Shown here: positions 4,237 to 63,944 of the stretch, piece after piece | Numbering within the stretch: position 1 is the stretch's first letter | Layout of the letters: every line of letters starts with the position of its first letter | Assembly (NCBI GenBank): GCA_009760885.1 | Contig: CM019696.1 | Coordinates: 41,958,221-42,022,220 of the forward strand | DNA length: 64,000 bases | DNA from: Achatina immaculata | Taxonomy: Eukaryota > Mollusca > Gastropoda > Stylommatophora > Achatinidae | Direction of reading: 5' to 3' | The notes under the pieces: generated by a model | Databases searched by the model: none | The model's input: the letters and a program-made list of their open reading frames with translations, nothing else | Told to the model about the DNA's origin: nothing | Made by a program: the position numbers and the translations under genes

Positions 4237-4303
4237 CAAGCATGTGCCGGCCTTTTTCTGTTAAATCAGAAATACTTAGACCATCTCTTGCTAATTCTTG
4301 GAG
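4237..4303 (-). CDS. Urease, coding exon 2 (gamma-domain C-terminal part)
   Basis: Reverse-strand exon between an acceptor (TTTATAG before 4303) and a strong donor (GTGAGT from 4236). It enters in phase 0 and leaves in phase 1, encoding LQELARDGLSISDL followed by TEKGRHML and the first base of Gly. Joined to exon 1 it gives ALIASQ-LQELARDG, which aligns with the conserved ureases' ALIASQ-x-x-E-x-x-RDG, and GRHMLG corresponds to their GRQ/H-LLG. This is the end of the UreA-like gamma domain that in eukaryotic urease is fused to beta and alpha domains. Later exons, including those with the nickel ligands, must lie left of the window; none was found in 1-4236. Confidence 0.85.
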
Positions 4304-4745
4304 CTATAAACAGAATAAATATCATCATCATTATTATCATAATAATCATAATCAACATTATCATTATTATCATCATCAATCTCATAAGTAACAACAGTAC
4401 AAATAACATTCACAAACAACTAATCACATTTTTCTTCTCACAGTTTTGAAACAGACTAAAGCAAATGTAAGCTTTGCTGAGCATAATTTTAGTTGATAGT
4501 TCCTCTCATTACTGGCTCTACCAATATTATATTTGTAATTTAAGCCATATCAACAGCAAAAATGTTTGTTTATGCTGCAAAAACCAGTCTTATTCTGCTC
4601 GTTTTTTTTTTTTTACTTCAAGTCTTGCTTTCATTTCTTCCTCAGGTAATGCTGCACCCATATGCAAAAGCTTACCACATGATATGATTTTTTATTAGTT
4701 CTTCCCTGTCCTTGTTACTGATAGAAAAATCCCTCATAGCTGACT

Positions 4746-4870
4746 AAACAAATATCTTTGTATCTCACTCATGGATGATTAAACAAATATCTTTGTATCT
4801 CACTCATGGATGATTAAACAAATATCTTTGTATCTCACTCATGAATGACTAAATAAATGTCTTTATATCT
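4746..4870. repeat. 35-bp minisatellite, about 3.5 copies
   Basis: Tandem units built on ACAAATATCTTTGTATCTCA plus ctcatggatgattaa repeat every 35 bp; the last copy is more divergent. It lies in urease intron 1. Confidence 0.9.
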
Positions 4871-4946
4871 CAGTTTGTGTCTCTTCCTCCCCACCCCACC
4901 CCACATTTTCTCTATATCAATTTTTATTGAAGGTGTGACTGTCATC

Positions 4947-5062
4947 CATTCTTGCTGTATGACCAAGCCATTCTTGCTGTATGACCAAGCCATTCTTGCT
5001 GTATGACCAAGCCATTCTTGCTGTATGACCAAGCCATTCTTGCTGTATGACCAAGCCATTTC
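4947..5062. repeat. 22-bp minisatellite, 5 copies
   Basis: Nearly perfect tandem copies of CCATTCTTGCTGTATGACCA+ag. The reverse-strand open frame across it is a by-product of the repeat. Located in urease intron 1. Confidence 0.95.
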
Positions 5063-5164
5063 ACTATTTTGCTACCTAGCATCATCATCACTGTTAGGAG
5101 CTTTGCATACTGCAGAACTTCAGAATCAGTTACTTTATTTGTTTATTTGTTTATTTTTTTAGTT

Positions 5165-5425
5165 TTTTTTTCTTCTCATTAATTGAATATGTTGTCCACA
5201 TTTCAGAACCTTTCAAGAGAAGAGGAAAATTGAAACACTTTGTGGCAACTGGAAAAATTGAGGGAAGAAGAGACAGAGGAAGACAGAGAAAGAAGTTACT
5301 GGATGGGCTGTCCGTGTGGCTAGGAATAAAGTCACCGGCAGATCTCATAATCAAGTCTAAAGACAGGGAATTGTGGAGAGAAATGATCACTTATGCCATG
5401 CGGTATGGCACTTGATTGATTGATA
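5165..5425 (+). mobile_element. RTE 3'-end fragment
   Basis: Plus-strand C-terminal tail of an RTE-type polyprotein: GKIEGRRDRGRQRKKLLDG followed by DRELWREMITYAMRYGT and stop, then a TTGATTGATTGA tail (5413-5424). The same tail protein in RTE-1 reads [18 protein letters not shown] (63430). Severely 5'-truncated. Confidence 0.8.
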
Positions 5426-5430
5426 GGTAT

Positions 5431-6560
5431 GACAAATCATAAGCTGTGTCTTCAGTGTTGATCTCCTGTTGCTCCATTTTCCCTTAGTCCAATGTGGCAT
5501 CTGACTTTTCATGTACTAATTTTTTTTTGTCTAGATAAAGGGTGAAACTAATTATAGATCCAGTATTGTTGAACGTGTACAGTGATTGATTTCCATTCCA
5601 TGTTATACTCATTGTTGTGCTTGAACTGCTGTCATGATACTTATACATAGTCTGGCCATCCTGTCTATCACTGATTGTAAGGCATCCCTTACAACAATAT
5701 AAATGGGGAGAGAGACAGCCAGACTATACAAGGTCATGGTCTTGGAGACAGGAGGAAGAGCAAAAGACAAGATCTGGGGACAAGAAGTGTAGAGATAAGA
5801 CTGAGAGTGAGACAACTCAGAATGTAAATGACTTTGTATCTCCTGGCCAAAGATTCACCGTATGACAGGTAAGTTTTGTTCAATTAAAACTAATCAGTAT
5901 CATAGTGTTGCGGACTTGGTTTTCACTGTACGTGTGCTGACATACAGGAAGCCAAATACTGTAGTGTCAGTAAGCAGGAGTGCCATGATTAGGGTCTGAG
6001 AATGTTTAAAACCTGGCTTAAAGTTAAGTTAGACAATTAACCATTTAATCCTGCATGAATGAAAACATCACCAACGACTTCATTGAATGTGCAGCTTAAA
6101 AGGACAGAAAAACATTCCAGATGTGCAGGGACTAGGACTAAGGTCAGTTTAACACTGCTCTTGACCTCAAAGATATCAGATGTGATCTCATCAAACAGTG
6201 GGGAGGTCTATAGCTGTGGAGAGCCAGACTGGTTCATGGGCCACTTACTATTGAACTTCCTATCCAAAGATGGATGTACATATTTTTAAAAATGTATGTC
6301 ATTATCCTTCCATTGTTTCTTACAGTTAAATTCTGTGATGATTATAAAATATTTTTCCTTGCTTTTCTGCTGACAAATGCATCAATTACATCATTAAAAT
6401 TCAGGGTAATTAGGCCCCTCAACACCTAAGGCTTGGTTATATATCCCAGGCTCTTCCATTAGCCTTGTCTCCTTTGTTTTTGTGCATCATTATCTTAGCA
6501 TCTCTCATGTCCTGTGTTATTTAACCTTCTCTACAGCACTAGATAAGGAGCTTGCAGAGG
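5431..6560. other. Unassigned intronic sequence
   Basis: Part of urease intron 1. Scattered short open frames have no recognisable motif, and no tandem repeat or transposon end was identified. Confidence 0.5.
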
Positions 6561-6566
6561 TGTGTA

Positions 6567-7563
6567 TGACAGAATAGGTCATAGTGGAAGGGTCATAACC
6601 AAGAAAAGTAAGAATACTTGCAGTACTTTCTCTGTGAGTATCTATTTACAGCTCACATGAACTTAGGAATAAACATCATGTAGAAATGGTTTAGAAGTTT
6701 CTAGAGCTCAAGATAGGATAATTCAGTACACGATAGAAAATTTATCATCGCATGAGAATCTGTAGTGGAAAATAGAGTAAGGTTAGAACAAGGAGTGGAA
6801 TTAGTGCGATTGTTTATAGCGTAAAAAACTTGGAAACATGGGATTGTTGGGCTGTAGCAGAGATTATAAAACTGATTTTAGAGAGGACAAGAGAGAGCCA
6901 GATAGGATGGTTAGTCATGACAGAGTTATGGACAGGATGAAAGATAGAGCTTGAGGTATAGTCAGTGAAGTTCAGTTTTGGACTTGAGTCCAGATGTAGT
7001 CAGGTTAGAGCTACTCGGTAGATTCATTTTTCAAGGAAGTTGTCAATATGCAGATTTTTGGGTTTTGTCCTTATTAGGACAGACAATCAAGCTTCAGTTG
7101 AGAAAGTTCATGCTAGAATATAGTAACAGTTTCTGAGAGGGAATTCTTTGAGAGGGTATTCTCAGTTGGATGGAATTTGTTAAGTTGTTTTTTGGGAGTG
7201 AAGTGTTGGATCCAGTGTGTAATTCTTAAGTTGTAAGTAAGTGAGATATGTATTTTCCTTTCGTAATATGGTGCTGTTCCCATATGGCAAAGTTGCTTTT
7301 GCCAGAAAGTTTTGTTGTTGCACTGATATCTCTGCTGTGTGGCACCAGTTTTTTCATCCTCACAACTTCACCCTCCATTCTAATCATCAATAATTTGTGT
7401 TGTCTGCTGTAAATCTACACCACTGGCTTTGTGGGAATCTTCATTTGTTCGACAAAGATGGTTGATGTCGGAAGACTGCCAGTTTATAGTCAAGTTGTAT
7501 TTGATCTTGTTCTAGTGGATTGAGTCCTATGCCTGGGTGTTTCTGTATGTTTCTAAGAATTTA
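6567..7563 (+). repeat. About 1-kb non-coding dispersed repeat, candidate solo LTR (copy 1)
   Basis: Shares its start (TGACAGAATAG, AAGGGTCATAACCAAG), middle (GTAGCAGAGATTATAAAACT) and end (GTCGGAAGACTGC, AGTCAAGTTGT) with 22087-23041. No coding potential. A late A-rich ATCAATAA-type box followed by TTTGTGTTG would suit an LTR polyadenylation region. Ends and target duplication are not certain. Confidence 0.55.
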
Positions 7564-7857
7564 GAAACAAGGTGTTCTAAGAAGGTCGAGAATTCAGATC
7601 TAATAGAAAGTCTATAACCAGAAAGAAAGTATTCTTACATAAACAAAGTTGTAAATCCAACTAGATGACTTATCAACATCAGCAGCACTCTACATTGTTT
7701 CACTGGTTGATATCATGTACTATATATATTCTTCTTTGTGTGGCAGGAGTACGTCCTATGTACATCTGCAGGATTGTTATCCTTTTGTGTTGCCTTTCTA
7801 TTTGGAAAGGTTATTATAGTTTCAGAGAATTCATGTGCAGTGGGATCATCATCAGAT

Positions 7858-8122
7858 TCAGCTGTTCATTCATTCATTCATTCATTTGCATGTCCCTTGT
7901 GGAACTTTGCCTCCCAAACAGCACTCTTGTAGGCCTCTCGGTTGTGAGCAAGATGGCCTGCTGCTGATGCATCCATTTGCAGATCATCGACGGTGTCTTG
8001 CAGCCATCTTTGCCTTGGTCTTCCTCTCTTTCTTTTTCCCATTATGTACACTTCCAAGATGGTTTTCTCTAGATTATCATGACGTTTAATGTGTCCAAAA
8101 TATTTAAGTTCTCTCAGCTGTT
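7858..8122 (-). mobile_element. RTE-2 LINE, 5'-truncated, with 9-bp TSD
   Basis: The insertion (7867-8113) is bounded by TCAGCTGTT at 7858-7866 and 8114-8122. The tail next to the left duplication is a CATT repeat (TGAA on the coding strand). It encodes the last 80 or so residues of RTE-2 (KYFGHIKRHDNLEKTILE, then DDLQMDASAAGHLAHNRE). It sits inside the 3' end of the LINE-4 copy to its right, so it is younger than that copy. Confidence 0.9.
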
Positions 8123-9135
8123 ACACTCTTTCTCTCTTTCTGAACCTTAAGTGCCAAGGACACATGGGGCTTCCGCAACGGTTTTCCACAAATGCCTGTC
8201 CTTTGGCTTTTTTCTGCTCTTGCCCAGGTGAGCCCTCTATTGCTCAACATCCTTTCTGTTGTTCTTTTCCATGTCTCTTTTGGTCTACCCTTACTTCTGT
8301 TCCCCTGTGGTGTCCATCTTAGTGCTATTTTTGGTAGTGAGTTGTCAGTCATTCGGAGCACATGTCCCAACCATTGCCACCATCTTTCCTCAATAATTGC
8401 TGCCAGTGGCTTCATCTGCATTTCTGCCAACAAGATGTTATTTCTTACGGTGTTTGGCCAAAATTTTTTCTAATTCTTCGTATACATTTAGTCTGGAAAG
8501 AATTCAACTTGTTTTCTATGGTTTTGATGATTTTCCACCATTCACTTCCATAGAATAGTACTTTTAGAACATTACTCTTAAATATCCTGATTTTCATATT
8601 TATGCTTAGTTTTTTAGATTTCCATATAGTCTGCAGCACTGCAAAAGCCTGGTTTGCTCTAGTAAGTCTGCTGATGATGTCCTCTGTGCTGTCTCCATTT
8701 TCTACTACTCTACTGCCAAGGTATACAAAATCATTGACCTCCTCCACTAACTTGCTATCTACTCTGAGTACATTTCTGTTGTTCACATTCTGCTTCATTA
8801 ACTTTGTCTTTCCTATGCTGGTCTTTAGTCCTATGTTGTTTGCATTCTGAGTTAGCTTGTTTATTTTATCTTGCATATCTTTGTGACTGCTTGACAGTAG
8901 ACAAATGTCGTCCGCAAAGTCAAGGTCCTCCAGCACTTGGTCAAGGTTCCATTGTATTCCTCCGCATTTGTCTTAACCAGTCTACTGCCAAGATAAATAA
9001 TGTTGGTGATAGTACACATCCCTGCTTCACTCCTGTTTGTACCCTAAAGCTGCTGGAGGTATGTGCTCTACAGATCACTTTGCACTGAAAACCCTTGTAT
9101 AGGGCTTTGATTACATTCACTATCTTATTGGGGAG
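8123..9135 (-). mobile_element. LINE-4 remnant, RT palm to 3' end
   Basis: Reverse-strand APE-type LINE. From 8936 leftward it reads LEDLDFADDICLLSSS (the RT catalytic FADD motif), then a Leu/Lys-rich thumb region with YLGSRVVENGDS and YGSEWW, and after a frame shift the C-terminal arginine-rich block GNRSKGRPKETWKRT (8433-8104). The 5' end stops near 9135 within the RT. Related copies lie at 33850-34660 and 52540-52650. Exact clade not assigned. Confidence 0.8.
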
Positions 9136-9237
9136 TCAGCTGTTACTGTTATTATATTATTACTAGATGTTTGAGGACTGGAAGGCTGGATTTGATGGTT
9201 TTTCCTCAGAGTAGACCCTTGATTAGCAATCAACCCA

Positions 9238-9475: not shown

Positions 9476-9479
9476 GGTA

Positions 9480-13597: not shown

Positions 13598-13723
13598 CTG
13601 TGATGCAATAAGAGCAATTGTCTCTGGCTGATTCAGTCTGAGACCACGAGCTAATCTTCTCTGAGCTGTATGACCAGCCTGAGACAGGAGAAGTCCATCT
13701 AACTCTCTGGGTGACAAGCGCAT
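13598..13723 (-). CDS. Urease, first coding exon (gamma/UreA-like N-terminus)
   Basis: Encodes 42 residues starting [13 protein letters not shown], with [12 protein letters not shown] and ALIASQ at the end. This matches the start of ureases (MKLSPRE..., RLARGxRLN, ALIASQ), the gamma domain that precedes the beta and nickel-binding alpha domains in the single-chain eukaryotic enzyme hydrolysing urea to ammonia and carbamate. The exon ends at a donor (GTATGG from 13597) in phase 0 and joins in frame to 4303. The ATG is supported by an in-frame TAG two codons upstream and by alignment at the family's usual first residue. A TTTACAG acceptor ending at 13757 suggests an intron in the 5' UTR. The reading frame past the donor lacks urease similarity. 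Confidence 0.9.
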
Positions 13724-18432: not shown

Positions 18433-20815
18433 TAACCATACAGCAATCTATCATGCACAGTGTAAAAAGATATGGCATTCAGGTATTTGGCCAAAAGAAT
18501 AGAAAAGAAATGTATTCGTACCACTGCCAAAAAGGGTACCCTGAAATTATGCACAAACTACAGAACTGTTGCCCTGATTAGTCATGCCAGTAAAATTCTA
18601 TTTAAAAATCATAATGGGTAGACATCGTACGAAAAAAGAAGGAGAAATCAATATGGCCTAACCTGGTTTTAGACAAGGAAGAGGAGAAGATGTATACAAA
18701 AAATATTACGATGCCATAAAAATTGGAGGTTATGAAAGACCAGAGATTAGATATGCTGGTGATACAGTATTACTGCCCACAACACAAAAAGGAATAGAAA
18801 AACTAATCATGTCCGTTCTTAAGAATAGCGAAAGGCAAAACCCTTTAATTATCATCATCATCATCATCAGGTGCCGTGCCGACTGGCGTTGGCTATTATG
18901 CTTCTCCAGAGTACGCGATCCTTCATGCAAGCCATCAGTTCAGTTGGTGATCTCCTCTCACACCATCCCGTCAGACTGTCCAGTATCATTTCTCTTGGTC
19001 TTCCTCTTGATCTTCTTCCTTCTATTTTTCCTGTTGTTATAATATTTTCAATGCCCCCTCTTCTCATTGCATGTCCTATGAAAGTACATTGTCTCTCTCT
19101 TATCTTTCTGACAAGGTTTTTTGTCTCTCCAGCTCTTCTCATACATTCTTCATTAGTTATTTTTGCTGTCCAGGGGATTCGCAACATTCTTCTAATAAAC
19201 CACATTTCTGCTGCTTCCAATGATTTTTGTGCAGACTTGCCTATTGTCCGTGATTCACTTCCATCTAACAAGATAGGTTCAATATAGCATTTTAGGACTC
19301 GTTTTCTAACATTCATTGATAAAGATGTGTTAGCTAATATGTTTCTCATTCTCTGAAATGCAGTCTTTGCTTGGCCTATTCTGTTCCTAATTTCTGTTTT
19401 GCATTTCCCATCTGAAGTTATTACTGCTCCAAGGTATTTGAATTTCTGCACCTGCTTTAGAATGGTTCCGTTTAATTTAATACTGCATGCTGGTGGATTC
19501 TGTTTCTTAGATATAACCATAGTCTCTGTCTTTTTTATGTTCAAAGTAAGGCCTTTCTGTTCACTTTCTTTGGCGACTTTATCCAAGAGATTTTGCAGGT
19601 CTTGTTGGTTCTCAGCTATCAGTACTGTGTCGTCAGCATACAGAAGGTTGTTAATATTGTATCCTCCAATTTTTATGCCTGGTTCTGTGATGATTGTTCT
19701 TAGAATATTCTCGCTGTACAGAGAAAAAAGGTCTGGAGATAGTACACATCCTTGTCGCACCCCTTGTTTTATAGGTTGGTATTTTCCAATTCTATTTTCA
19801 ACTCGAACTGCTGCTTCTTGCTGCCAGTATAGATGTTTTACAATCCTCAAGTCTTTGCCGTCTATATTGATGTCTTCAAGCATTTTAATAATTTCACTAT
19901 GTTTCACCTTGTCAAATGCCTTGGTGTAATCAATGAAGCATAAGTAGAGATCTTTCTGTACTTCTAAAGCTCTTTCTGTTAGTGTTCGTAAAGCATAAAT
20001 GGCATTGTGTGTTCCTTTCCTTCAACAAATCCAAACTGTTCATCTGCTATTTCCATTTTTATCTTTTTCCTTGTTCTTCTCATAATGATTCTCAGAAGTA
20101 GCTTCGTTATGTGACATGAGAGGCTGATAGTCCGGTGGTCGTCACATTCTTTTGCACCTGCCTTTAATTATGCAAAGAAAAATAAATTGATGACAACTGA
20201 CAAGACAAATAAGGCAACTTAAATATATATTAATGAGGAAAAATTCGAATAAGTGGAGAGTTTGGAATATCTTGGATCATTACTAACTAATAATGGAGAT
20301 ACAATGAGGGAAATTAAAAGGAGGATATCTATCGCTCTTCAAAAAGTAAAACAACTAAAGAAACAGACAACTACAAAAAATAAGTGCATGCATCTTTCCC
20401 ATCGCAACATTTACCTGTAATTCCTGGACACTTAATAAAACAGCTGAGAAGCACATAAATGCCTTTGAATGTAAATGCTACAGAAGGGTTCTTCAAATAT
20501 CATGGACACAAAAAAGAACAAATGTATCCATACTACAAGAACTTAATATTGAAGAAGGTTGGCTAGTAACGAAGATTAAAAGAGAAAATATTTTGGACAC
20601 ATCATGAGGATTTAGAGAAGACCATCTTGGAAGGGTACATAATGGGGGAAAAAAAAGAGAGGAAGATCAAGGCGAAGATGGCCTCAAGACATCGTTGATA
20701 ATCTGCAAATGGATGCATCAGCAGCAGGGCATCTTGCTTACAACCGAAAGGTCTACAGGAGAGCTGTTAGGAAGGCAAAGTTTCGCAAATGACATTCAAA
20801 TGACTGACTGACTGA
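18433..20815 (+). mobile_element. RTE-2 copy split by an RTE-1 insertion
   Basis: Plus-strand RT relics start at the WHSGIWPKEWK-equivalent (18470), with an internal deletion between the AGFRQGRG block and YDAIKIGGYE (near 18700). They run to YAGDTVLL-like motif C and stop at 18852. The same element resumes at 20172 (KLMTTDKTNKAT) and continues to the C-terminal DDLQMDASAAGHL equivalent and a GACTGACTGA tail (20802-20813). The break is exactly the RTE-1 insertion with its TSD. Confidence 0.85.
18853..20160 (-). mobile_element. RTE-1 (BovB-like) LINE, 346-codon ORF, perfect TSD
   Basis: 5'-truncated reverse-strand insertion with the 11-bp duplication CCTTTAATTAT at 18842-18852 and 20161-20171. 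An uninterrupted frame (19907-18867) encodes the RT from [11 protein letters not shown] through [29 protein letters not shown] (catalytic YADD), [11 protein letters not shown] and the C-terminal [15 protein letters not shown]. The 3' end is a GAT repeat. The open frame and perfect TSD show it is one of the youngest insertions here, although it lacks the endonuclease. Confidence 0.95.
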
Positions 20816-40612: not shown

Positions 40613-41164
40613 CACGCATGCACAAACACACAATGGACTCACACACAACACTCACTCGTACAAACACACATATGCTCAAAGAGAAGGAATATGAAGAGCA
40701 TGGATATTACGAGCACTATATTACTGACAACGGTCGATTCTACGGATTTACTTTGTGTAATCACTTGTTTGCAGCTTTATGCTTGTGATTATAACATTCT
40801 TTGAATCATGCGATTTACTTGTTTATAGAATCACATAAAAAAGTATGGAAATCTTTAACATTTTAAATCAAGAGATAACTGAAGCCATAGCCACCTCATA
40901 GCTCTGCCTAAAGCAAACAGAAATCACAGAGAGCTATCGGGTCACCGAATCACAACACTAAAACACAAATGGAAAACTGGATTAAAAAAAATTGTAGCCA
41001 GGAAAATCACACAAGCCCTTAAAGATAGCGGCAACCTGCCCAGCACAATGGAAGGATGCTGACCAGGAAGAAACACCACAATGAACACAGCCATAATGGC
41101 GTATGAAGTATTCGAAGGGTTACAAAAGAAAGATGAAACGCTACTGGTGACCTGGACCTAGAGG

Positions 41165-42600
41165 ATACGTACAACCGAGTGGATTACATCACCCTACTTA
41201 CACTAGAGGATGCATACAACCGAGTGGATTACATCACCCTACTTACACTAGAGGATGCATACAACCGAGTGGATTACATCACCCTACTTACACTAGAGGA
41301 TGCGTACAACCGAGTGGATTACATCACCCTACGTACACTAGAGGATGCATACAACCGAGTGGATTACATCACCCTACTTACACTAGAGGATGCATACAAC
41401 CCAGTGGATTATATCACCCTACTTACACTAGAGGATGCATACAACCGAGTGGATTACATCACCCTACTTATACTAGAAGATGCGTACAACCGAGTGGATT
41501 ACATCACCCTACTTACACTAGAGGATGCGTACAACCCAGTGGATTACATCACCCTACTTACACTAGAGGATGCATACAACCGAGTGGATTACATCACCCT
41601 ACTTACACTAGAGGATGCATACAACCCAGTGGATTACATCACCTTACGTACACTAGAGGATGCATACAACCGAGTGGATTACATCACCCTACTTACACTA
41701 GAGGATGCGTACAACCCAGTGGATTACATCACCTTACTTACACTAGAGGATGCGTACAACCGAGTGGATTACATCACCCTACTTACACTAGAGGATGCAT
41801 ACAACCGAGTGGATTACATCACCCTACTTACACTAGAGGATGCATACAACCCAGTGGATTACATCACCCTACTTACACTAGAGGATGCATACAACCGAGT
41901 GGATTACATCACCCTACTTACACTAGAGGATGCATACAACCCAGTGGATTACATCACCCTACTTACACTAGAGGATGCATACAACCGAGTGGATTACATC
42001 ACCCTACTTATACTAGAAGATGCGTACAACCGAGTGGATTACATCACCCTACTTACACTAGAGGATGCGTACAACCCAGTGGATTACATCACCCTACTTA
42101 CACTAGAGGATGCATACAACCGAGTGGATTACATCACCCTACTTACACTAGAGGATGCATACAACCCAGTGGATTACATCACCTTACGTACACTAGAGGA
42201 TGCATACAACCGAGTGGATTACATCACCCTACTTACACTAGAGGATGCGTACAACCCAGTGGATTACATCACCTTACTTACACTAGAGGATGCGTACAAC
42301 CGAGTGGATTACATCACCCTACTTACACTAGAGGATGCATACAACCGAGTGGATTACATCACCATACTTACATTAGAGGATGCATACAACCCAGTGGATT
42401 ACATCACCCTACTTACACTAGAAGATGCATACAACCGAGTGGATTACATCACCCTACGTACACTAGAGGATGCATACAACCCAGTGGATTACATCACCCT
42501 ACTTACACTAGAAGATGCATACAACCGAGTGGATTACATCACCCTACGTACACTAGAGGATGCATACAACCGAGTGGATTACATCACCCTACTTACACTA
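41165..42600 (+). repeat. 45-bp minisatellite, about 32 copies, made from RT motif A
   Basis: Each unit encodes VDYITLLTLEDAYNR (or ...NP), 15 residues, and keeps the frame, giving a 524-codon open frame. The unit is the catalytic motif A region of the surrounding Jockey-like RT (DLEDAYNRV, where the Asp is a metal ligand). Sequence variants (TATACTAGAAGATGCG, ACGTACA, CCAGTG) recur exactly 540 bp apart: 41401-41940 and 41941-42480 are two near-identical 12-unit blocks. Confidence 0.98.
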
Positions 42601-42782: not shown

Positions 42783-43020
42783 ACTTACACTAATGCCGCA
42801 ACTAGGCACCGTCACATGGCTTGTCAAATGAATAGCTGTAGCACTCTTAAGCAAAACTGTGGCCATGAGATATAGATCATGGACATCCAATCCAAACAAG
42901 ATGAATTCTGGCCTCCCTTATGGATCACCTTCACCACTGTTATTCAGCATATACACAGTGAGACTAACTCTGGACTCCCTCAAGGATCCTCCCTCACGTA
43001 TATTGTTCAGCATATACACA

Positions 43021-44452
43021 GATGAATTTATTAAAGCAGGAGGAAAGGAATGTGCAACAGTCTATCATGCACTACGTAAAAAGATATGGCATTCAAGTAT
43101 TTGGCCAAAAGAATGGAAAAGAACTATATTCATACCACTGCCAAAAAAGGGTAACCTGAAATTATGCACCAACTACAGAACTGTTGCCCTGATTAGTCAT
43201 GCCAGTAAAATTCTGTTAAAAATCATAATGGGCAGACTTCGTAAGAAAATAGAAGAAGAAGTCAATATGGTCCAAGCTGGTTTCAGGCAAGGAAGAGGAT
43301 CAAGAGATCATATATTCAATATAAGATTAATAACAGAGAAATGCAGAGAGTTTAATGTGAATCTATATTTATCCTTTATAGACTACTCAAAGGCATTTGA
43401 TTGTGTACAACATCATAAACTTTGGGAATTAATGGGAAAAAATGGGATTTCCAACACATTTGATACAATTAACATCACTGCTGTATCTAGACCAACAAGA
43501 ACCAGTAAAAATAAATGGTGAAACAACTTGGTTTGACATAAAACAAGGGATCCGCCAGGGGTGCATATTGTTGCCTTACTTATTTAACTTGTATACTGAA
43601 AATATAATGAGGAATGTTAGAGAAGATGTAGACAAAGAATATTATGATGCCATAAAAATTGGAAGTTATGAAATACCAGAGATTAGATATGCTGATGACA
43701 CAGTATTACTGTCCACAACACAAAAAGGAATGGAAAAACTAATTATGTCAGTCCGTAAGAATAGTGAAGAGCAAAACCTCCATCTTAATGCGAAGAAAAC
43801 TAAACTGATGACAACTGACAAAACAAACAAGGCAGCTGATATATGTATCAATGAGGAAAAACTAGAAGAAGTGGAGAGTTTTGAATATCTTGATCACTGC
43901 TAACTAATAATGGAGATACAATGAGGGAATTAAAAAAGAGGACATCTATCGCTCTTCAGAAAGTAAAACAACTAAAGAATCTGTGGAGAGGAACAGACAG
44001 AACTACAAATATAAGATTTTTAAGGGCATGCATCTTTCCCATCGAAACATGCCTGTGAGACCTGGACACTTAACAAAACAGCTGAGAAGCACATAAATGC
44101 CTTTGAATGTAAATTTGAATAGTTCTTCAAATATTATGGACACAAAAAAGAACAAATATATCCATACTACAACAACTTAATATTGAAGAAGGCTGGCTAG
44201 TAAATACTATTAAGCAGAGAAAACTTAAATATTTTGGACACATTAAACGTCATGATAATCTAGAAAAAACCGTCTTGGAAGGGTACATAATAGGAAAAAG
44301 AGAGGAAGGCCAAGACGAAGACGGCTACAAGACATCGTTGATGATCTGCAAATGGATGCATCAACAACAGGCCTTCTTGCTCACAGAGGTCTACAGGAGT
44401 CTTGTTAGGGAGGCAAAGTTCTACAAGGGACAAGCAAATGAATGAATGAATG
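43021..44452 (+). mobile_element. RTE-2 LINE, RT half, 7-bp TSD
   Basis: ATACACA at 43014-43020 and 44453-44459. Frames 43021-43521 and 43442-43903 give the RT: WHSSIWPKEWKRTIFIPLPK, QAGFRQGRGSRDHIF, LSFIDYSKAFDCVQHHKLW (motif A), GIRQGCILLPYLFNLYTENI, IRYADDTVLLSTTQ (catalytic YADD). Frameshifts near 43440, 43900 and beyond break it; the C-terminal part is degraded and ends in a TGAATGAATGAATGA tail. Best reference copy of RTE-2 RT in the window. Confidence 0.9.
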
Positions 44453-47304: not shown

Positions 47305-47344
47305 ATGTCAGAAGAACAGGATGAGAAATTTAAATTCATCAAGG
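47305..47344 (+). CDS. ureG: Urease accessory GTPase UreG, coding exon 1
   Basis: ATG at 47305 opens MSEEQDEKFKFIK and the first base of a Gly codon, then a GTATGT donor at 47345. An in-frame TGA 15 nt upstream fixes this as the first Met. Phase 1 joins exactly to the exon at 47847 (Gly-Gly-Ser-Ile-Val). The short acidic/basic start itself is not conserved in UreG; the call rests on frame continuity with exons 2 and 3. Confidence 0.75.
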
Positions 47345-47846: not shown

Positions 47847-48043
47847 GTGGATCCATTGTTAGTTCTGGACACAGCCATGGAGACAGCCATGGACACAGCC
47901 ATGATGACAGCCATGGACACAGCCATGATGACAGCCATGGACACAGCCATGATGACAGCCATGGACACAGACATGACACCTTAGACAACCCAGGCACTTA
48001 TACTGACAGAGATATGCCAAACTACAGAAATGACTGGAATGAG
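47847..48043 (+). CDS. ureG: UreG, coding exon 2: His-rich nickel-binding N-terminal tail
   Basis: Acceptor TTTTAG ends at 47846; donor GTAGTT starts at 48044; phases 1 in and 0 out. After GGSIVSS it encodes GHSHGDSH, three copies of GHSHDDSH and GHRHD, then YTDRDMPNYRNDWNE. Plant and some bacterial UreG proteins carry comparable His-rich tails before the GTPase domain; these bind nickel and zinc. The repeat is a 24-bp coding minisatellite (47867-47962). The segment after it corresponds to the linker before the family's R-A-F-x-V-G-I-G-G P-loop start, which is exactly how exon 3 begins. Confidence 0.88.
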
Positions 48044-48434
48044 GTAGTTCTGACATGTGTTAGATGTTTGTTTGTTTGTGTCCCATTATGTATCATTAGT
48101 TATTTAAATCAGTCTAATTTGTGAGTGCTAAGTTTCCATCATTATAGACTGCATAATGAAAAAATGCTGCACAGGTAAAACGGGCACTGACTGGGGACAT
48201 GGGACCCAACTAGAAGATCTTGATTTTGCAGATGACATAACTCTTATTAGTGACAATATGAAATCGATGCAAGAAAAAACAGATACCTTGTCTTCGCTGG
48301 CTAGCAAAATAGGACTCAAAATTAACAAGGAGAAAACAAATAATGAAACTTCTCATTAATCAAGAAGAAAAAATATGCATAGAAGGAACAGCTGTTGAAG
48401 AAATACACCAATTTATATACCATGGTAGCTACAT

Positions 48435-49444
48435 CATTAAGGACTTATACAATGGATATGGTTGTGCAGTCAAGACAGAAGAAGGGATGAGTGAATGGTT
48501 CCAGATTGAAACAGGCGTGAAACAAGGATGTATACTGTCTCACTTACTTTTTGGGATTACAATAGACTTCATAATGAAAAAATGCTGCACAGATAACACA
48601 GGCATTGACTGGGTACATGGGACCCAACTAGAAGATCTTGATTTTGCTGATGACATAACTCTTATCAGTAATAATGTGAATTCCATGCAAGGAAAAACAG
48701 ATAGCCTGTCTTCACTGGCTAGCAAAATAGGACTTGAAATTAACAAGGACAAAACAAAAATAATGAAAATTCCTCTCAATCAAAATGGAAAAATACACAT
48801 AGAAGGGACAGATATTGAAGAAGTCAATCAATCTGCATACCTTGGCAGCTACATAGACCAGGATAGTGATACTAGAAAGGAAGTTAGGATCAGAATTGCA
48901 AAAGCAGCATCACTCTTCAAGAATCTTGAGAACATATGGAATTCAAAAGTTATAAGCACAAAAACCAAGTTAAGACTATTCAATTCAAATGTAATATCCA
49001 CCCTCATTTATGCATGCGAAAGCTGGAAAACAACTAAAGAAATAGAAAAGAAATTAGACTCTTTTGAAAACAAATGCCTAAGGAAAATTCTTGGCATCAA
49101 GTGGAATGAATTCAAGAACAATGCAGAGATAAGACAGATGACTGAACAACAACCAGTCTCATGGGTGATCAGGAAAAGGAGATGGACATATGTTGGTCAC
49201 TTGATGAGAAGAAATGATCAGAGAATCCCAAAACAAGCTATCAAGTGGAACACAACAGGCCGAAGAAAAAGGGGCAGACTGCGTGAAACTCTGAAGAGGA
49301 CATTATTAAGAGAGGCCAAGCTAACAGATATAAAATCCTTTGATGAGGTTGAAAGACTCGGCGAAGACAGGAAAAATTGGCGAACTACTTTGCGAGCCCT
49401 ATGTGACGTCTAACGGCACGGGAAGGATATAAGATATAAGATAA
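48435..49444 (+). mobile_element. LINE-3 inserted into LINE-3, 11-bp TSD, long ORF
   Basis: TSD GGTAGCTACAT at 48424-48434 and 49445-49455. The insert starts within the RT (IKDLYNGYGCAVKTEEGMSE, GVKQGCILSHLLFG), has LEDLDFADDITLISNN as catalytic motif and ends GRRKRGRLRETLKRT...LRALCDV, stop at 49411-49413, with a GATATAAGATATAAGATAAG tail. The open frame 48343-49413 starts in the host element and crosses the junction in frame, so its first 30 codons belong to a different copy. Confidence 0.95.
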
Positions 49445-51055: not shown

Positions 51056-52154
51056 TCCAATGGAAAACCTTGGCGCAAGATAAGAACAGAGGAGGCATCT
51101 CCCTACAAACATATCAACAAAGATCCAGGCACTCAGAATTAAATATGTGGGACAAATCATCCAGCAGCCACACAAACATACACTAGCCCATTACTACGTA
51201 GGGCTAAGGCTAATCAAACTTTGTAAATTAAACAATGCATATCCCATCACTTTGGCACTATACCGCTCTTCTACAGACAATGCATACAAAGTGTCACTGG
51301 ACATGAACATTTAATACACATGAAAACATCAGGCATATACAAATATCTGGTCAGAAAACAGGAGCCACAATTACAGGACAGAATAAAGAGAGGATACAAA
51401 TACTTCATCACTGACTACACACGATCATTTCAAAACCTACACCAGAAAGGAATCACACCAAGTGCACGAGAGATAACATACAGACTATTGTTCAGCATAA
51501 CACCGACCACACAAGGTGTCACCCGCAGATCCAACAGACTGATCAGATGTAGACTATGTAGAACTAAAACACAGGAAACAGAAGAGCACATCTTCTTTGA
51601 GTGCAAAACTGTTTCTTTAGCTTTTAAACTGTTGACTCACGAGATAACAACAAGAACAACACAGACAGTAGACATGTATAGAGCAGTCATGTTGAACACC
51701 ATCCCTCGAACAGTAGCAGACAGCCATAAACAGTCCATCATAATCCTAGCAGAATTTAGATCTCTTATCTGGTCACGTAGGAATAAGGCCATGTTTGATA
51801 ACAAAGTTTTTACACCAGAAATTTTTCTGACCATCTTCCAAAACAAATTGTTAAGGCTTTCCGGTAGTTTTTAACAACTACTTGGAATACTGAAGTCCTT
51901 TTTGTTTTTTGTGTATGTATGTATGTTTTGACAACGACACAGTTTTAGTTTCAAAATATTGGTTATTATATAACCCTGTTTGTATATAACTATGCACTCA
52001 GGTGTACCTATCATCCAAATCACTATCATCTCATGTTTTGTTAAAGCCCACCATTTCATTATTTCACTTCACGGGCAATCACCCTCACTTCACGTCATTT
52101 GCACACGATTTGTAACTATCAGACAAATAAACTTCATTAAAAAAAACAAAAAAC
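51056..52154 (+). mobile_element. L1/Tx1-like LINE, ORF2 C-terminus and 3' UTR
   Basis: The frame after 51060 reads ISTKIQALRIKYVGQIIQQP and ITLALYRSSTDNAYKVSLD, and 51320-51874 encodes KGITPSAREITYRLLFSI and a zinc-binding CRLCRTKTQETEEHIFFEC (C-x2-C-x7-H-x4-C). This is the C-terminal architecture of L1/Tx1-type ORF2 (zf-RVT). The 3' UTR runs to an A-rich end (52139-52153) that abuts U1 snRNA sequence. RT and endonuclease are absent. Confidence 0.7.
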
Positions 52155-52282
52155 GGTGGTACTTCCAGGGTGAGACCGTCCCATTGCACTCCGGGTGGGT
52201 TGACCCCTGCGATCACCCCAAATGCGGGTGACTCGAGTGCGTAAATTTTTCGTAGGGGGGACTGCGTTTGCACTATCCCCTG
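52155..52282 (+). pseudogene. U1 snRNA, 5'-truncated (nt about 37-164)
   Basis: GGTGGTACTTCCAGGGTGAG, CCATTGCACTCCGGGTGGGT, TGACCCCTGCGATCACCCCA, AATGCGGGTGACTCGAGTGC, an Sm-site-like AAATTTTTCG and the final stem ending ACTATCCCCTG align with animal U1. The first 36 nt, including the ACTTACCTG that pairs with 5' splice sites, are absent; an A-rich LINE end takes their place. The 3' flank ATTAAACAAATAG loosely resembles a snRNA 3' box, then an 18-nt poly(A) ends the insertion at 52330. Confidence 0.9.
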
Positions 52283-53492: not shown

Positions 53493-55549
53493 CAATTATC
53501 CAAATGCTTGAAGACATCAATATAGACGGCAAAGACTTGAAGACTGTAAAACATCTATACTGGCATCAAGAAGCAGCAATTCAATTTGAAAATGGAACTG
53601 GAAAATATCAACCTATAAAACAAGGGATGCGACAAGGATGTGTACTATCTCCAGACCTTTTTTCCCTGTATAGCGAGAATATTCTAAGAACGATCATCAC
53701 AGAACCAGGCATAAAAATTGGAGAATACAATATTAATAACCTTCGGTATGCTGATGACACAGTACTGATAGCTGAGAACCAACAAAATCTCTTGGATAAA
53801 GTTGCTAAAGGAAGTGAACAGAAAGGCCTTACTTTGAACATCAAAAAGACAGAGACTATGGTTATATCTAAGAAATAGAATCCACCAACATGCAGTATAA
53901 AATTAAATGGAACTATTCTAAAGCAGGTGCAGAAATTCAAATACCTTGGAGCAGTAATAACTTCAGATGGGAAATTAGTTAGCAAGTTAGTTGATTCTCT
54001 TGGGCCAAATGTGGCGCATAGGGCGGAGGACAAGACTCTCCATGTCTGGCAATTCCTTGCTACTTGCTTTAGATCTTTGGTGTTTCTGATGAGCATTGTT
54101 GAACACTTCTTGGTGATAACTCTTCTTAGCGTGTCTTTGGGTCTTCCCTGCTTTCTTTTACCCCCTGGTGACCATGTAGAGTGTGGGAGTTGAATCCCCA
54201 CCAAAGGAATGGAGAGAAGGTATTATTTTTAAACTGCTTAAAAAAGGGGAGTTGTCTGACTACAATAACTGGCGTGGTATCACCCTGCTATCAATACCAG
54301 GAAAACTCGTTTGCAGTTTGCTGATAGAAAGACTCAGGAAATCACTGATTGTCAAACTTAGAGAAGAACAGGAGGGTTCAGACCAAACCAGTCCTGCATG
54401 GACCATACTCAGAACTATCATAGAAGAATCAATAGAATTTCAGTCTCATCTCACCATCAACTTCATGGACTTCCAAAAAGCCTTCGACAGCCTCCACCAA
54501 CCCACACTGTGGAAACTTCTTACAATCTATGGCTTTCCGTCCAAATATGTAAACATAATAAAAGCCCTCTACGATGATTCATGTTGCTGTGTAAGAACAG
54601 AATCTGGCAACTCTGACTGGTTTCCGGTGGAAACAGGTGTAAAACAAGGTTGCGTCATGTCACCAATGCTATCTGGGCTAGCAATTGATTGGATATTTCA
54701 CAGATGCACCCATGATACATCCCTGGGCATTAAATGGATTGACAATAAATCACTGGAAGACCTAGACTTCGCAGATGATATCGCACTGCTGAGCTCCACA
54801 CACGCTGATGTGAAATAGAAAACAAACTGACTCCAAAATATCTCTAAACAAATTGGCCTCAAAATCAACTCAGAAAAAAATAAAGTTCTTGATCTCACCA
54901 ACAAACCAGATAACATTAAACTTAATGGCCATGCTCTTGAAAAAGTTACTAATTTTACACACCAAGGAAGCAAGTTAACACCCACAGGAGATGAGAAATG
55001 CAGAACAGAAATTAGGAACAGAATAGGCCAAGCAAAGACTGCATTTCAGAGAATGAGAAACATATTATGCAACATATCCTTATCAATGAATGTTAGAAAA
55101 TGAGTCCTAAAATGTTATATTGAACCTATCTTGTTATATGGAAGTGAATCATGGACAATAGGCAGGTCTTCACAGAAATCATTGGAAGCAGCAGAAATAT
55201 GGTTTATTAGAAGATGTTGTGAATCCCCTGGACAGCAAAAATAACTAATGGAGAATTGTATGAGAAGAGCTGAAGAGACAAAAAAATCTTGTAAAAAAAA
55301 TAAGAGGGAGACAATGTACTTTCATAGGACATGCAATGAGAAGAGGGGGCACTGAAAATATTACAACAACAACTGGAAAAATAGAGGGAAGAAGATCCAG
55401 AGGAAGACCAAGAGAAATGATACTGGACAGTCTGATGGGATGGTGTGAAAGGAGGTCACCAACTGAGCTGATGGCCTGCATGAAGTATCGGGTACTCTGG
55501 AGAAGCATAATAGCCAACACCAGTCAGCACAGCAACTGATGATGATGAT
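53493..55549 (+). mobile_element. RTE-1 LINE inserted in a minisatellite, carrying LINE-5
   Basis: RT from [20 protein letters not shown] through [16 protein letters not shown] and [13 protein letters not shown] to [11 protein letters not shown] (53930-53970). Interrupted at 53976-54988, then [15 protein letters not shown] (55000), LLYGSESWTIG and [17 protein letters not shown] with a GATGATGATGAT tail ending at 55549. Stops and a small deletion near 53790 (one DLQ block lost). Confidence 0.9.
53976..54988. mobile_element. LINE-5 insertion, 5' part inverted (twin priming)
   Basis: TSD AGATGGGAAAT (53965-53975) and AGATGAGAAAT (54989-54999), one mismatch. The minus-strand part (about 54188-53976) is the 3' end: GGKRKQGRPKDTLRRV, LKQVARNCQTWRVLSSAL, ALCATFGPRES. 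The plus-strand part (about 54188-54988) is the RT: WREGIIFKLLKKGELSDYNN, INFMDFQKAFDSLHQPTLW (motif A), GVKQGCVMSPMLSGLAIDW, LEDLDFADDIALLSS (motif C), ending near KLTPTGD. The two parts are head to head with the intervening C-terminal region missing. Confidence 0.85.
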
Positions 55550-56823: not shown

Positions 56824-56925
56824 GAAAGAAATGTCTGCAACAGATGGTATTACCAAGTGGTTACCTATGGTTAGATAGAAAGAAATGTCTGCAACAGATG
56901 GTATTACCAAGTGGTTACCTATCTA
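56824..56925. repeat. Tandem duplication, 54-bp period
   Basis: AAAGAAATGTCTGCAACAGA through tggttacctat occurs twice, and the sequence between (atggttagat) is the inverse of what follows the second copy (atctaaccat), giving a small palindrome. Confidence 0.85.
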
Positions 56926-57478
56926 ACCATACCAATCATTGGTTGATTTGGTGATCGAATGAAAACCTATATTTGCAATGTAGTATGGTTGTAGTTGGAA
57001 ATGAAAAAGTAGAAGATTTAGTAGAATTTTATGGTCTGGGAATGAGAAATGAGCTGACAGATAATGTTGGTTATGGTCACCATTCTATGATGGTAGGCAG
57101 ATGATCTCAATGTAGGGACAATGGCTACAATCAATGACTAGTACAGTCACTGCCAGGAAAGAAAGCAATGGTAAACTATCTTCTGGAAATATACCAAGAA
57201 ACCCAAACAGCAATCATGGAAAGTCAAATAGGAAAAAGATCTGGTGGTGAGGCCTCCAGGTCAGATAGATCTAATTTTAACACCGGGGAAGAGTGTGAGG
57301 CAGAGGTCAGTACTAGTAATTGTGATGACGGACAAAATCCTGACAGTGTTACCAAGGAAAACCCCTGCATCGAACTAAAAAGAAAAATAAGAGTAGGAAC
57401 ATGGAATGTAAGAAGTATGTATGAGGGAATGTGCGAGGAGATAAATTAATAGAATGGGCAAATATGCATAACATGATT

Positions 57479-57610: not shown

Positions 57611-57716
57611 TAACATGATTATTGGAAACAAATGGTTTAAGTGATGTTTGAGAAGTCTGGCTACCTGAAGCAGGCCAAACAAAAAGACCTTTATTCACAC
57701 TTACTACATTCTTATT

Positions 57717-59889: not shown

Positions 59890-60120
59890 AATAGTTTAAC
59901 AATAGCAGACATGGAAAATATACTTCTTGTAGTAAACATGGAAAGTGTGTTTCTCTTAGTAAAGTTTGCTTCTTGTAGTAGACATGGAAAGTGTGTTGTA
60001 AAGTTTGCTTCTTGTAGTAGACATGGAAAGTGTGTTTCTCTTAGTAAAGTTTGCTTCTTGTAGTAGACATGGAAAGTGTGCTCCTCTTAGTAGACATGGG
60101 AGCATGGGAAGTGTTCGCTT
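59890..60120. repeat. Degenerate minisatellite related to 53280/55551
   Basis: Units such as TTTGCTTCTTGTAGTAGACA+tggaaagtgtg recur, some with a longer period of about 55 bp. Same motif vocabulary as the arrays at 53280 and 55551. Confidence 0.85.
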
Positions 60121-60179
60121 CTAAACAAATTTTGTTACGAAGGAGAACACTGTGACTCCCACTGGTCATGCTGTAATAT

Positions 60180-60326
60180 CATAACAGTCCGTTTCCAAAA
60201 CAGTCTGAAGAAGGAGAAGACAGAAGACATAACAGTCCATTTCCAAAACACTTTGAAGAAGGAGAAGACAGAAGACATAACAGTCCGTTTCCAAAACACT
60301 TTGAAGAAGGAGAAGACAGAAGACAT
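60180..60326. repeat. 48-bp minisatellite, 3 copies
   Basis: CATAACAGTCCGTTTCCAAA+acactttgaagaaggagaagacagaaga in tandem, in ureG intron 2. Confidence 0.95.
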
Positions 60327-60439
60327 AATGACCAGCTTTATTTCACATGTTTCATAACTCACTTTAGACACAGAAATCTCATTTCTGGAAAATAATGTTA
60401 AGTAAGACATAAGCAAAAATAAAACTAATATACTATCAC

Positions 60440-63400
60440 TACAAATTATCCTACAATTGTCCTTGCTGTTTGTTCATCAAATATAATTCCTACTCCTCGT
60501 TCATGTTTCTCACTTCCTGAATATATTATTGTATATTTATCTGAGTTTATCTTCCCTGCACATGTCCATCTAACTTCACTCATTCCTAATATGTTGATCT
60601 TCATCCTTTCCATTTCCATCTTTACATTTTCTAATTTTCCAGCCTGGAATAAAGTTCTAACATTCCATGTTGCTATTTTGAACTTGTTAGTTTTGCCACC
60701 ATTAGCTTGATGACGATCTGGCCTCACCTGTGGCTCGTGAGCTGCCCTACCGGACGAGGCTGTTCCAGAGGAACATCCATTAATGTCGTTCATGATGAAT
60801 CGATTATTCTGTTTAAGCATAAATATTCTTGGGAATTACAACAGTGGTTTCCCGTTGCCTTCTGTTGGTTTGTGTACGGACTCTCCGCTAGCCTTTGGAC
60901 TCCCTGTCCTACCTGCAAGGCAGCGGGAGCGAGAGGTTTTAAGGCGTCTCTGACCCACCTGGTATTCCCTTCACTGAGCACCTGAGGCACTTTATAGGAG
61001 TAGTAGAGCCACCTACTACCCCACCTCGCTCCAAGTCATGCTAGCCCAACTGAAAGGACAACCAATAAACATAAATATTATACAAGTGTACGCTCCAACA
61101 TCAGAAAGCTCTGAAGAAGATGTACAGCTATTTTATAATGACATAGAGACAGCACTAAAACACACAAAGTCACATGAAGTTACCATAGTCATGGGAGATT
61201 TTAATGCCAAAGTTGGTAAAGGAAGAACTTCAGACATCGTTGGTGACTATGGACTGGGGGAGAGGAATGACAGAGGTTATAAATTAATTGAATGGGCAAG
61301 AATACACAGCATGGTTGTAGGAAACACCTGGTTTAAACAACATCCTCAAAGACTGGCAACATGGTGCAGTCCAGACAAAAAGACTTTTAACCAGATAGAC
61401 TACATATTAATCAACAAACGATTCCGCAATGCGTTACTGACAACAAAAACCATGCCAGGAGCTGACTGCAATAGTGACCATGATCCACTCTGTGGAAAAG
61501 TTAGAATAAAACTAAAGAAAGCAGGCAGAAAAGTGAGAAACATCAAACTGAATACAGAACTTCTTAAAAATGACCGAGAACTGAGAGAACAATACAAAGT
61601 TATTATAACAAATAGATACAATGCAATAGCAAAGATAAATAGTATAGATGAACAATGGGAAATGTTAAGAGATTCTATCCACCAAACTGTTAAGGAGATA
61701 ATACCACCAAAAAAAGAAGCCCCTAAAAATAAATGGATGACAGACGACATCTTATGACTGATGGACAAGAGGAGGAGGAGGAGTAAAAATAACGAGAAAA
61801 AATATAACAAGATAAATAAAGAAATAAGACACAAATGCAGAGAAGCAAAAGAAGTGTGGTTAAATGAGCAGTGCAGACAGATAGAGGACTCTCATATTAA
61901 AGACAGCAAAAACATGCACAAATGAATTAATGAACTCACAGGCAGGAAAACAAAATATACCACAGGATGCCTGAAATCGAAAGAAGGTAAAATGTTAATG
62001 GGAAAAGAAGACATTGTGGACAGGTGGACAGAGTATATCGGTGAGCTATATGGAGGAGAAAGACCAGAATTAACACCAGATACTGAAAACTGTGAGGGAC
62101 CACCAATACTTGAAGATGAAATCATAGATGCCATCAAACACATGAAGAAAAGCGACTGTGCCTGATAATATAACAATAGAAGAAATAGAGGCACTAGAGG
62201 AGACAGGAATAAAAATAATAACCAAGTTACTGAATGACATTTACAACAGTGGTTATATTCCCAGTGACCTGATTAAATCTACGTTTATAGCACTACCAAA
62301 GAAACCAGGTGCAAAGGAATGTGACGACCACCGGACTATCAGCCTCTCATGTCACATAACGAAGCTACTTCTGAGAATAATTATGAGAAGAACAAGGAAA
62401 AAGATAAAAATGGAAATAGCAGATGAACAGTTTGGATTTGTTGAAGGAAAGGGAACACACAATGCCATTTATGCTTTATGAACACTAACAGAAAGGGCGT
62501 TAGAAGTACAGAAAGATCTCTACTTATGCTTCATTGATTACACCAAGGCATTTGACAAGGTGAAATATAATGAAATTATTAAAATGCTTGAAGACATCAA
62601 TATAGACGGCAAAGAACTGAGGATTGTAAAACATCTATACTGGCAGCAAGAAGCAGCAGTTCGAGTTGAAAACAGAATTGGAAAATATCAACCTATAAAA
62701 CAAGGGGTGCGACAAGGATGTGTACTATCTCCAGACCTTTTTTCTCTGTACAGCGAGAATATTCTAAGAACATCACAGAACCAGGCATAAAAATTGGAGG
62801 ATACAATATTAACAACTTTCGGTATGCTGACGACACAGTACTGATAGCTGAGAACCAACAAGACCTGCAAAATCTCTTGGATAAAGTCGCCAAAGAAAGT
62901 GAACAGAAAGGCCTTACTTTGAACATCAAAAAGACAGAGACTATGGTTATATCTAAGAAACAGAATCCACTAGCGTGCAGTATAAAATTAAACGGAACTA
63001 TTCTAAAGCAGGTGCAGAAATTCAAATACCTTGGAGCAGTAATAACTTCAGATGAGAAATGCAGAACAGAAATTAGGAACAGAATAGGCCAAGCAAAGAC
63101 TGCATTTCAGAGAATGAAAAACATATTAACCAACACATCTTTATCAATGAATGTTAGAAAACGAGTCCTAAAATGCTATATTGAACCTATCTTGTTATAT
63201 GGAAGTGAATCATGGACAATAGGCAAGTCTGCACAAAAATCATTGGAAGCAGCAGAAATGTGGTTTATTAGAAGAATGTTGCGAATTTCCTGGACAGCAA
63301 AAATAACTAGTGAAGAATGTATGAGAAGAGCTGGAGAGACAAAAAACCTTGTCAGAAAGATAAGAGAGAGACAATGTACTTTCATAGGACATGCAATGAG

Positions 63401-63604
63401 AAGAGGGGGCATTGAAAATATTATAACAACAGGAAAAATAGAAGGAAGAAGATCAAGAGGAAGACCAAGAGAAATGATACTAGACAGTCTGACGGGATGG
63501 TGTGAGAGGAGATCACCAACTGAGCTGATGGCCTGCATGAAGGATCGCGTACTCTGGAGAAGCATAATAGCCAACGCCAGTCGGCACGGCACATGATGAT
63601 GATG
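60440..63604. mobile_element. Near full-length RTE-1 (BovB-like), 5' end inverted, 12-bp TSD
   Basis: Perfect TSD ATATACTATCAC at 60428-60439 and 63605-63616. The minus part (about 61030-60440) holds the 5' UTR and endonuclease start (FKIATWNVRTLFQAGKLENV, INILGMSEVRWTCAGK). The plus part continues exactly where it stops: INIIQVYAPTSESSEE, VIVMGDFNAKVG-type (reads TIVMGDFNAKVGKG), QIDYILINKRF, MPGADCNSDHD (61040-61500). The RT follows: [74 protein letters not shown], and the C-terminus [11 protein letters not shown], with a GATGATGATGAT tail. At least three lesions: stops near 61755 and 62479 and a deletion/frameshift near 62771. Confidence 0.95.
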
Positions 63605-63659
63605 ATATACTATCACACTGAAACTGCATGGACAACCATTTTAAAATTTGTTTTTTTCA

Positions 63660-63795
63660 TGATAATAAAAGTTTAGTTTTATGACAAATCACATGAAATA
63701 ATGCAGTTAGATTTAAACAATTTTTATGACAAATCACATGAAATAATGCAAGTTTGTTTTCTATTTATTTGACAAATCACATGAAATAATGGAGT
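63660..63795. repeat. Short tandem repeat, 3 copies
   Basis: GACAAATCACATGAAATAAT occurs three times at roughly 41-50-bp spacing just before ureG exon 3. Confidence 0.9.
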
Positions 63796-63819
63796 TCACT
63801 AAAAAAATTTATTTCACAG

Positions 63820-63944
63820 AGAGCCTTTTCAGTCGGCATTGGCGGACCTGTTGGTTCGGGAAAGACAGCCTTAGTGTTAGCATTGTGTCGGTGCCTCAGA
63901 GACAAATACGGAGTTTGTGTCGTCACCAACGATATCTTCACAAA
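63820..63944 (+). CDS. ureG: UreG, coding exon 3: P-loop GTPase start
   Basis: Acceptor TTTCACAG ends at 63819; donor GTACTT begins at 63945; phase 0 in, phase 2 out. Encodes [30 protein letters not shown] and [20 protein letters not shown] is the Walker A/G1 motif and VVTNDIFTK the next conserved UreG block. UreG is a SIMIBI-class GTPase that, with UreF and UreH/UreD, delivers nickel to urease. The normal continuation after TNDIFTK is E-D, which would need the next exon to start with G (from K's last base) then GAA/GAC; it lies right of the window. Reading past 63944 gives unrelated residues and a stop, supporting the donor. Confidence 0.93.

Follow-up and report, generated by a model that had tools for sequence, protein, structure and literature searches.

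In bacteria, urease genes and those for the maturation of the enzyme are organized in operons. In Sinorhizobium sp. K101 (locus L001), the structural genes and ureG are neighbours, with about 6.6 kb from the start of ureA to the end of ureG; the ure genes of this locus are putative assignments, and ureA was also identified by a tblastn match. The bacterial urease subunits are separate, whereas eukaryotic urease 3la4_A, which we take to be jack bean urease, is a single chain. Eukaryotic UreG proteins, such as those of Bradybaena, Arion, and Lymnaea, have a His-rich N-terminus followed by a P-loop. Animal genomes are not usually expected to keep the genes for an enzyme and its chaperone side by side for long.

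According to the literature, no nickel enzyme other than urease has been reported in eukaryotes (PMC7435645). A paper from 2011 states that the only metazoan ureases found were those of a sea anemone and, among entries of the NCBI database, of sea urchin, amphioxus, and tick (PMC3073912). Other papers mention the previously reported urease activity of the host tissue in tubeworms (PMC8789280) and invoke urea/urease-aided mineralisation in the mussel mantle (PMC10610157).

The window analysed here is a stretch of 64,000 nucleotides from the stylommatophoran snail Achatina immaculata. It contains the 5' ends of a urease gene and of a UreG gene, which are arranged head to head and point away from each other (Table 1). 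Unlike the co-directional and closely spaced genes of the bacterial operon, these genes are divergent and spliced, and their start codons are 33,582 bases apart. The linkage of both genes is likely ancestral, dating back at least to the time before gastropods and bivalves diverged, and its age possibly reaches back to early bilaterians. A sequence-only reading of this DNA had named both genes and described a head-to-head orientation with start codons 33.6 kb apart. The exon coordinates agree with this geometry, and the identities are supported by Pfam, NCBIfam, and tblastn scores above those of shuffled windows. Both genes are incomplete in the window, and what had been named are their 5' parts.

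Table 1. Features of the urease-UreG locus. Bit scores are those of tblastn searches in which Candidula urease and Bradybaena UreG served as queries.
Feature	Position	Strand	Description
Urease exon 2	4237..4303	-	residues 43-64, 67 nt; AG acceptor and GT donor; ends in phase 1; 45.1 bits
Urease exon 1 (coding part)	13598..13723	-	residues 1-42, 126 nt; ATG at 13723; GT donor; 72.4 bits
Interval between start codons	13724..47304	.	reverse transcriptase fragments, fragments of a Tc-type transposase, tandem arrays
UreG exon 1 (coding part)	47305..47344	+	40 nt (13 codons + 1 nt); 32.3 bits
UreG exon 2	47847..48043	+	197 nt; His-rich extension and linker; 44.3 bits on the non-repetitive part
24-bp tandem repeat	47866..47976	+	encodes the His-rich extension; 4.6 copies, 96% match (Tandem Repeats Finder)
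UreG exon 3	63820..63944	+	125 nt; P-loop; ends in phase 2 after TNDIFT; 81.6 bits

When joined, the two urease exons encode 64 residues, which match positions 1-64 of the 99 positions of Pfam Urease_gamma (PF00547; E 4.3e-21) and align with the N-terminus of ureases from 13 named animal species. Among 15 sequences compared, identity was highest with Candidula (53/64), the next best reaching 47/64; the match to UreA of Sinorhizobium amounts to 58% over 43 residues. Residues 1-65 of 3la4_A align with residues 1-64 of the window. Compared with such a single-chain urease, the window shows the N-terminal 64 residues alone: the beta and alpha domains, with the nickel ligands and the carbamylated lysine, would lie to its left, and the catalytic part and the fusion itself are outside. 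The relatives of the window urease are single fused chains, unlike the separate bacterial subunits. Judged by its two in-phase exons, its GT/AG borders, and its animal nearest relatives, this appears to be a spliced animal nuclear gene.

The three UreG exons encode the first 120 residues of the protein, including an intact GTPase P-loop in exon 3, while most of the GTPase domain lies outside the window. These residues match Pfam cobW/HypB/UreG with an E-value of 1.1e-6 and NCBIfam ureG with an E-value of 2.9e-11, the latter yet under the full-length cut-off of that profile. Exon 2 encodes 14 His in 65 residues, an N-terminal extension as in eukaryotic UreG that precedes the P-loop in the same manner; its origin from a nearly perfect 24-bp repeat, resulting in DDSHGHSH units, is a trait of the window UreG itself. 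Identity is 53/64 with Bradybaena and 51/64 with Arion, and exon 1 including the junction residue is identical to both at 13 of 14 positions; with UreG of Sinorhizobium, the match is 67.5% over 40 residues. In a FastTree phylogeny of 32 sequences and 78 columns, the window UreG joins Bradybaena first (support 0.875) and Arion next (0.952). Sea urchins fall among heterobranch snails in this short tree, and its deeper branches are therefore unreliable. Cys-Pro-His is the metal site motif of UreG. It was found in two relatives (P0160 and P0162), and its position in UreG, like those of the remaining GTPase motifs, would lie after residue 120, past the window.

With Candidula urease and Bradybaena UreG as queries, tblastn recovered each of the five exons, with order and strands unchanged, along with one additional match of 22.3 bits in the window. 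In 20 triplet-shuffled windows, urease scored at most 26.6 and UreG at most 23.5. As in the urease part, the borders of the UreG exons are GT/AG throughout and the phases of the three exons are compatible, so that the earlier statement on agreeing splice phases holds. By sequence comparison, the closest named proteins to both genes are those of land snails and slugs. Bacterial contamination, which had already been argued against, is ruled out by the introns, the reverse transcriptase fragments, and the animal nearest relatives.

The linkage was further compared among other animals. Thirteen named animal species are represented among 39 urease matches, and six of them also appear among the UreG matches listed; UreG of the remaining seven was not among these, nor was any other stylommatophoran with both proteins among the matches listed. 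In all six species with both proteins, urease and UreG are on contigs of identical length, namely Lymnaea (1,798,005 bases), Solemya (185,037,279), Mya (80,778,335), Mactra (35,424,985), Gigantopelta (46,388,186), and the sea urchin Lytechinus (28,770,610), for which a second UreG entry (P0197) carries no contig. Equal length presumably indicates the same contig in these six species. The listed value does not merely give the largest contig in each assembly, because it can vary among the proteins of a single species: two ureases of Escallonia are listed with contigs of 1,011,128 and 259,579. In Lymnaea the distance between both genes is bounded by the 1.8-Mb contig, and in Solemya it is hinted at by locus tags that differ by 3 (ScPMuIL_009285 and ScPMuIL_009282), while the contigs of Solemya, Mya, Mactra, Gigantopelta, and Lytechinus are chromosome-sized and therefore show at most location on the same chromosome.

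Since equal-length contigs recur in another five molluscs and in a sea urchin, animals have likely kept urease and UreG together since a distant common ancestor, and the linkage would then be orthologous in these species. The sequence-only reading had proposed a comparison with related species and had left a choice between retained synteny, co-regulation, and later clustering. The comparison, with its six of six species among the matches listed, favours the first of these. A rearrangement that brought the genes together in this snail lineage only appears quite unlikely: orientation and exact spacing are known from this window alone, as such an event would allow, but the equal-length contigs of all six species, Lymnaea and Solemya among them, speak against it. 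Even less credit is given to a misjoining of two unrelated loci within the repeat-rich region between 14 and 47 kb. Of the 33,581 bases between the start codons, 10,396, or about a third, resemble another part of the window and could mislead an assembler; however, the window is free of any run of N, and a random misjoin would not predict the same two proteins on equal-length contigs in other assemblies. Accordingly, the linkage is probably neither unique to this window nor an accident of assembly. No report of urease-UreG linkage in animals was found among the papers listed by an open-access library, a scope outside of which most subscription journals and bioRxiv preprints fall.

From its protein family, UreG is predicted to be a GTPase that acts with UreF and UreD/UreH in supplying urease with nickel, and its His-rich N-terminus may bind the metal. 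Under ancestral linkage, insertions of transposons would have enlarged both the interval and the UreG intron, leading to the present spacing, in line with the mobile elements seen in the interval and the introns. A shared short promoter is implausible because 33.6 kb with transposon fragments lie between the genes, and given this spacing urease and UreG most likely have separate promoters. Any surviving co-regulation would work via a common chromatin neighbourhood.

A stronger form of ancestral linkage, compatible with it, is that selection for co-regulation has kept the genes together as a functional cluster that is divergent, widely spaced, and placed in a common regulatory neighbourhood. 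Both products are predicted to act on one enzyme, and equal-length contigs extend from molluscs to a sea urchin in all six comparable species, which would fit this proposal; it is nevertheless doubtful, as the start codons are separated by 33.6 kb including transposon fragments and as passive retention yields an identical pattern. In its fullest version, which we regard as rather unlikely, urease and UreG would be an animal functional pair linked since before the protostome-deuterostome split and held by selection for joint control, a counterpart of the operon that transposons have stretched and not broken.

If the ancestral linkage is as old as suggested, it would offer a sharp test of selection for co-regulation against mere lack of breakage in animal gene order, and a landmark by which genes for urease maturation could be located in molluscs. 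Land snails release ammonia and have tissue urease, and for this reason the locus may bear on nitrogen excretion and shell chemistry.

Within the window, bacterial queries from Sinorhizobium, which are weak probes for short animal exons, gave no tblastn match up to E 1 for UreE and UreF and two chance-level matches for UreD (E 0.50 and 0.81). All 52 frames inside the interval that are stop-free over 90 residues or more were screened against Pfam, and no further cellular gene was recognised among them; 40 had no match at E up to 0.01 and 12 had one. Reverse transcriptase matches occurred in four frames, three of which exceed the curated cut-off, and an RNase H match below cut-off in one. Of two frames of a 45-bp tandem array, one gave a repetitive HTH_25 score in which no individual stretch passed, the other a DUF5065 match below cut-off. 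Matches to Cas9_a and Bunya_G2 in two frames, both below cut-off, were disregarded. Transposase-type helix-turn-helix domains were matched above cut-off in two frames, and DUF6451 in one. Frames 48313-49410 and 8448-8972 each combine the latter domain with a reverse transcriptase.

The urease and UreG genes are arranged head to head and point apart, with 33,582 bases from one start codon to the other. This arrangement, with five exons, agreeing splice phases and 33.6 kb between the start codons, had been claimed in the sequence-only reading and is borne out, since all five exons are found at their claimed coordinates in the sequence and both sets join in phase. The two urease exons, read directly in the sequence, encode an N-terminus of 64 residues, and the three UreG exons encode 120 residues, stopping in phase 2 after TNDIFT. 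GT or AG is present at every intron border seen, and the last intron of each gene ends outside the window. No N occurs in the 64,000 nucleotides.

Coordinates of exons, repeats, mobile-element fragments and RNA matches in the window
Feature	Position	Strand	Detail
Urease exon 1	13723-13598	-	
Urease exon 2	4303-4237	-	
UreG exon 1	47305-47344	+	
UreG exon 2	47847-48043	+	
UreG exon 3	63820-63944	+	
His-rich UreG repeat	47866-47976		24-bp tandem repeat, 4.6 copies, 96% match
Non-LTR-type retrotransposon fragment	18870-20021	-	Pfam
Non-LTR-type retrotransposon fragment	42832-43900	+	Pfam
Non-LTR-type retrotransposon fragment	48313-49410	+	Pfam
Non-LTR-type retrotransposon fragment	54180-54815	+	Pfam
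Non-LTR-type retrotransposon fragment	60978-61754	+	Pfam
Non-LTR-type retrotransposon fragment	62482-63593	+	Pfam
Tandem array	41158-42600		45 bp, 32 copies, 94% match
U1 spliceosomal RNA match	52151-52282	+	72.2 bits, gathering 69.5
5S rRNA match	56886-56996	-	39 bits, threshold 38

Using Candidula urease and Bradybaena UreG as tblastn queries, all five exons were recovered from the window in correct order and strand (72.4, 45.1, 81.6, 44.3, and 32.3 bits); the sole further match reached 22.3 bits. These matches are not due to chance, because 20 triplet-shuffled windows yielded no score above 26.6 bits with the urease query or 23.5 bits with the UreG query. Pfam identified Urease_gamma (E 4.3e-21) and cobW/HypB/UreG (E 1.1e-6) in the respective residues. 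The NCBIfam matches to UreG (E 2.9e-11) and to four urease models all lie under the full-length cut-offs, as expected for fragments. Among solved structures, the UreG part matched two UreG sequences (5xkt and 4hi0) and the urease part 16 urease sequences, including 3la4, which we take to be jack bean urease.

The nearest relatives are Candidula, Bradybaena, and Arion, which are stylommatophorans, an order placed by taxonomy look-up in Heterobranchia within Gastropoda. Urease residues 1-64 are most similar to Candidula unifasciata (53/64 identical, best of 15 compared), followed by Limulus (47/64) and Physella (46/64). The conserved part of UreG is identical to Bradybaena similaris at 53/64 positions and to Arion vulgaris and Aplysia at 51/64 each, and exon 1 matches Bradybaena and Arion at 13/14. 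In a FastTree phylogeny of 32 sequences picked from the listed UreG matches (78 columns), the window is sister to Bradybaena (0.875), nested in a clade with Arion (0.952). The deeper branches are not trustworthy, as sea urchins are placed among heterobranch snails. By these affinities the window most likely derives from a land snail or slug other than those whose proteins were matched.

Linkage in other animals was assessed from the size of the longest contig carrying each protein, which the database gives for many matches. Thirteen animal species are named among the 39 urease matches (Candidula, Limulus, Mytilus edulis, Mytilus coruscus, Tachypleus, Physella, Solemya, Lymnaea, Gigantopelta, Mactra, Mya, Diadema antillarum, and Lytechinus), and six also occur among the UreG matches listed (two lists, each the best 120 of thousands). 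In all six, urease and UreG are each on a single contig of identical size: Lymnaea stagnalis (1,798,005), Solemya velum (185,037,279), Mya arenaria (80,778,335), Mactra antiquata (35,424,985), Gigantopelta aegis (46,388,186), and Lytechinus pictus (28,770,610); a second Lytechinus UreG entry, P0197, has no contig given. Contig size is not a species constant, since two Escallonia ureases among the 39 matches differ, and the equal sizes suggest that both genes share a contig in these species. If so, the size of the Lymnaea contig would limit their distance to at most 1.8 Mb. The Solemya locus tags, which presumably run along the scaffold, are three apart (UreG ScPMuIL_009282, urease ScPMuIL_009285), which hints at near neighbours. 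For Mya, Mactra, Gigantopelta, and Lytechinus, a shared chromosome is indicated at most.

The gene order most likely reflects ancestral linkage, retained at least since the gastropod/bivalve split, with a spacing that transposons may have stretched. The interval between the start codons contains fragments of reverse transcriptases and of a Tc-type transposase and several tandem arrays, and 10,396 of its 33,581 bases, those in tandem arrays counted, have a similar stretch elsewhere in the window. Pfam named no further cellular gene in any of the 52 stop-free interval frames of >= 90 residues; 12 had matches at E up to 0.01, namely eight of mobile-element kind, two in a tandem array, and two below the cut-off, which were disregarded. 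A short promoter common to both genes is implausible because of the 33.6 kb between the start codons; control via a common chromatin neighbourhood is a hypothetical possibility.

For bacterial proteins, the delivery of nickel to urease by UreG together with UreF and UreD/UreH is established (PMC3792862). From its family, the UreG encoded here is predicted to act likewise as a GTPase with these partners, and its His-rich stretch would bind nickel. Because a 24-bp tandem repeat encodes this stretch, individuals could differ in its length.

All five frames from UreG intron 2 (15.8 kb) given to Pfam carry reverse transcriptase or its endonuclease, and the one from the urease intron contains DUF6451 together with a weak match to reverse transcriptase. 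At all six retrotransposon fragments in the table, Pfam confirmed either reverse transcriptase or endonuclease. The 45-bp array is open in two forward frames (538 and 514 residues), for which Pfam gave repetitive, unconvincing scores and nothing more. The U1 match in UreG intron 2 is either a gene or a pseudogene, and the 5S rRNA match, barely above threshold, is perhaps a 5S-derived short interspersed element.
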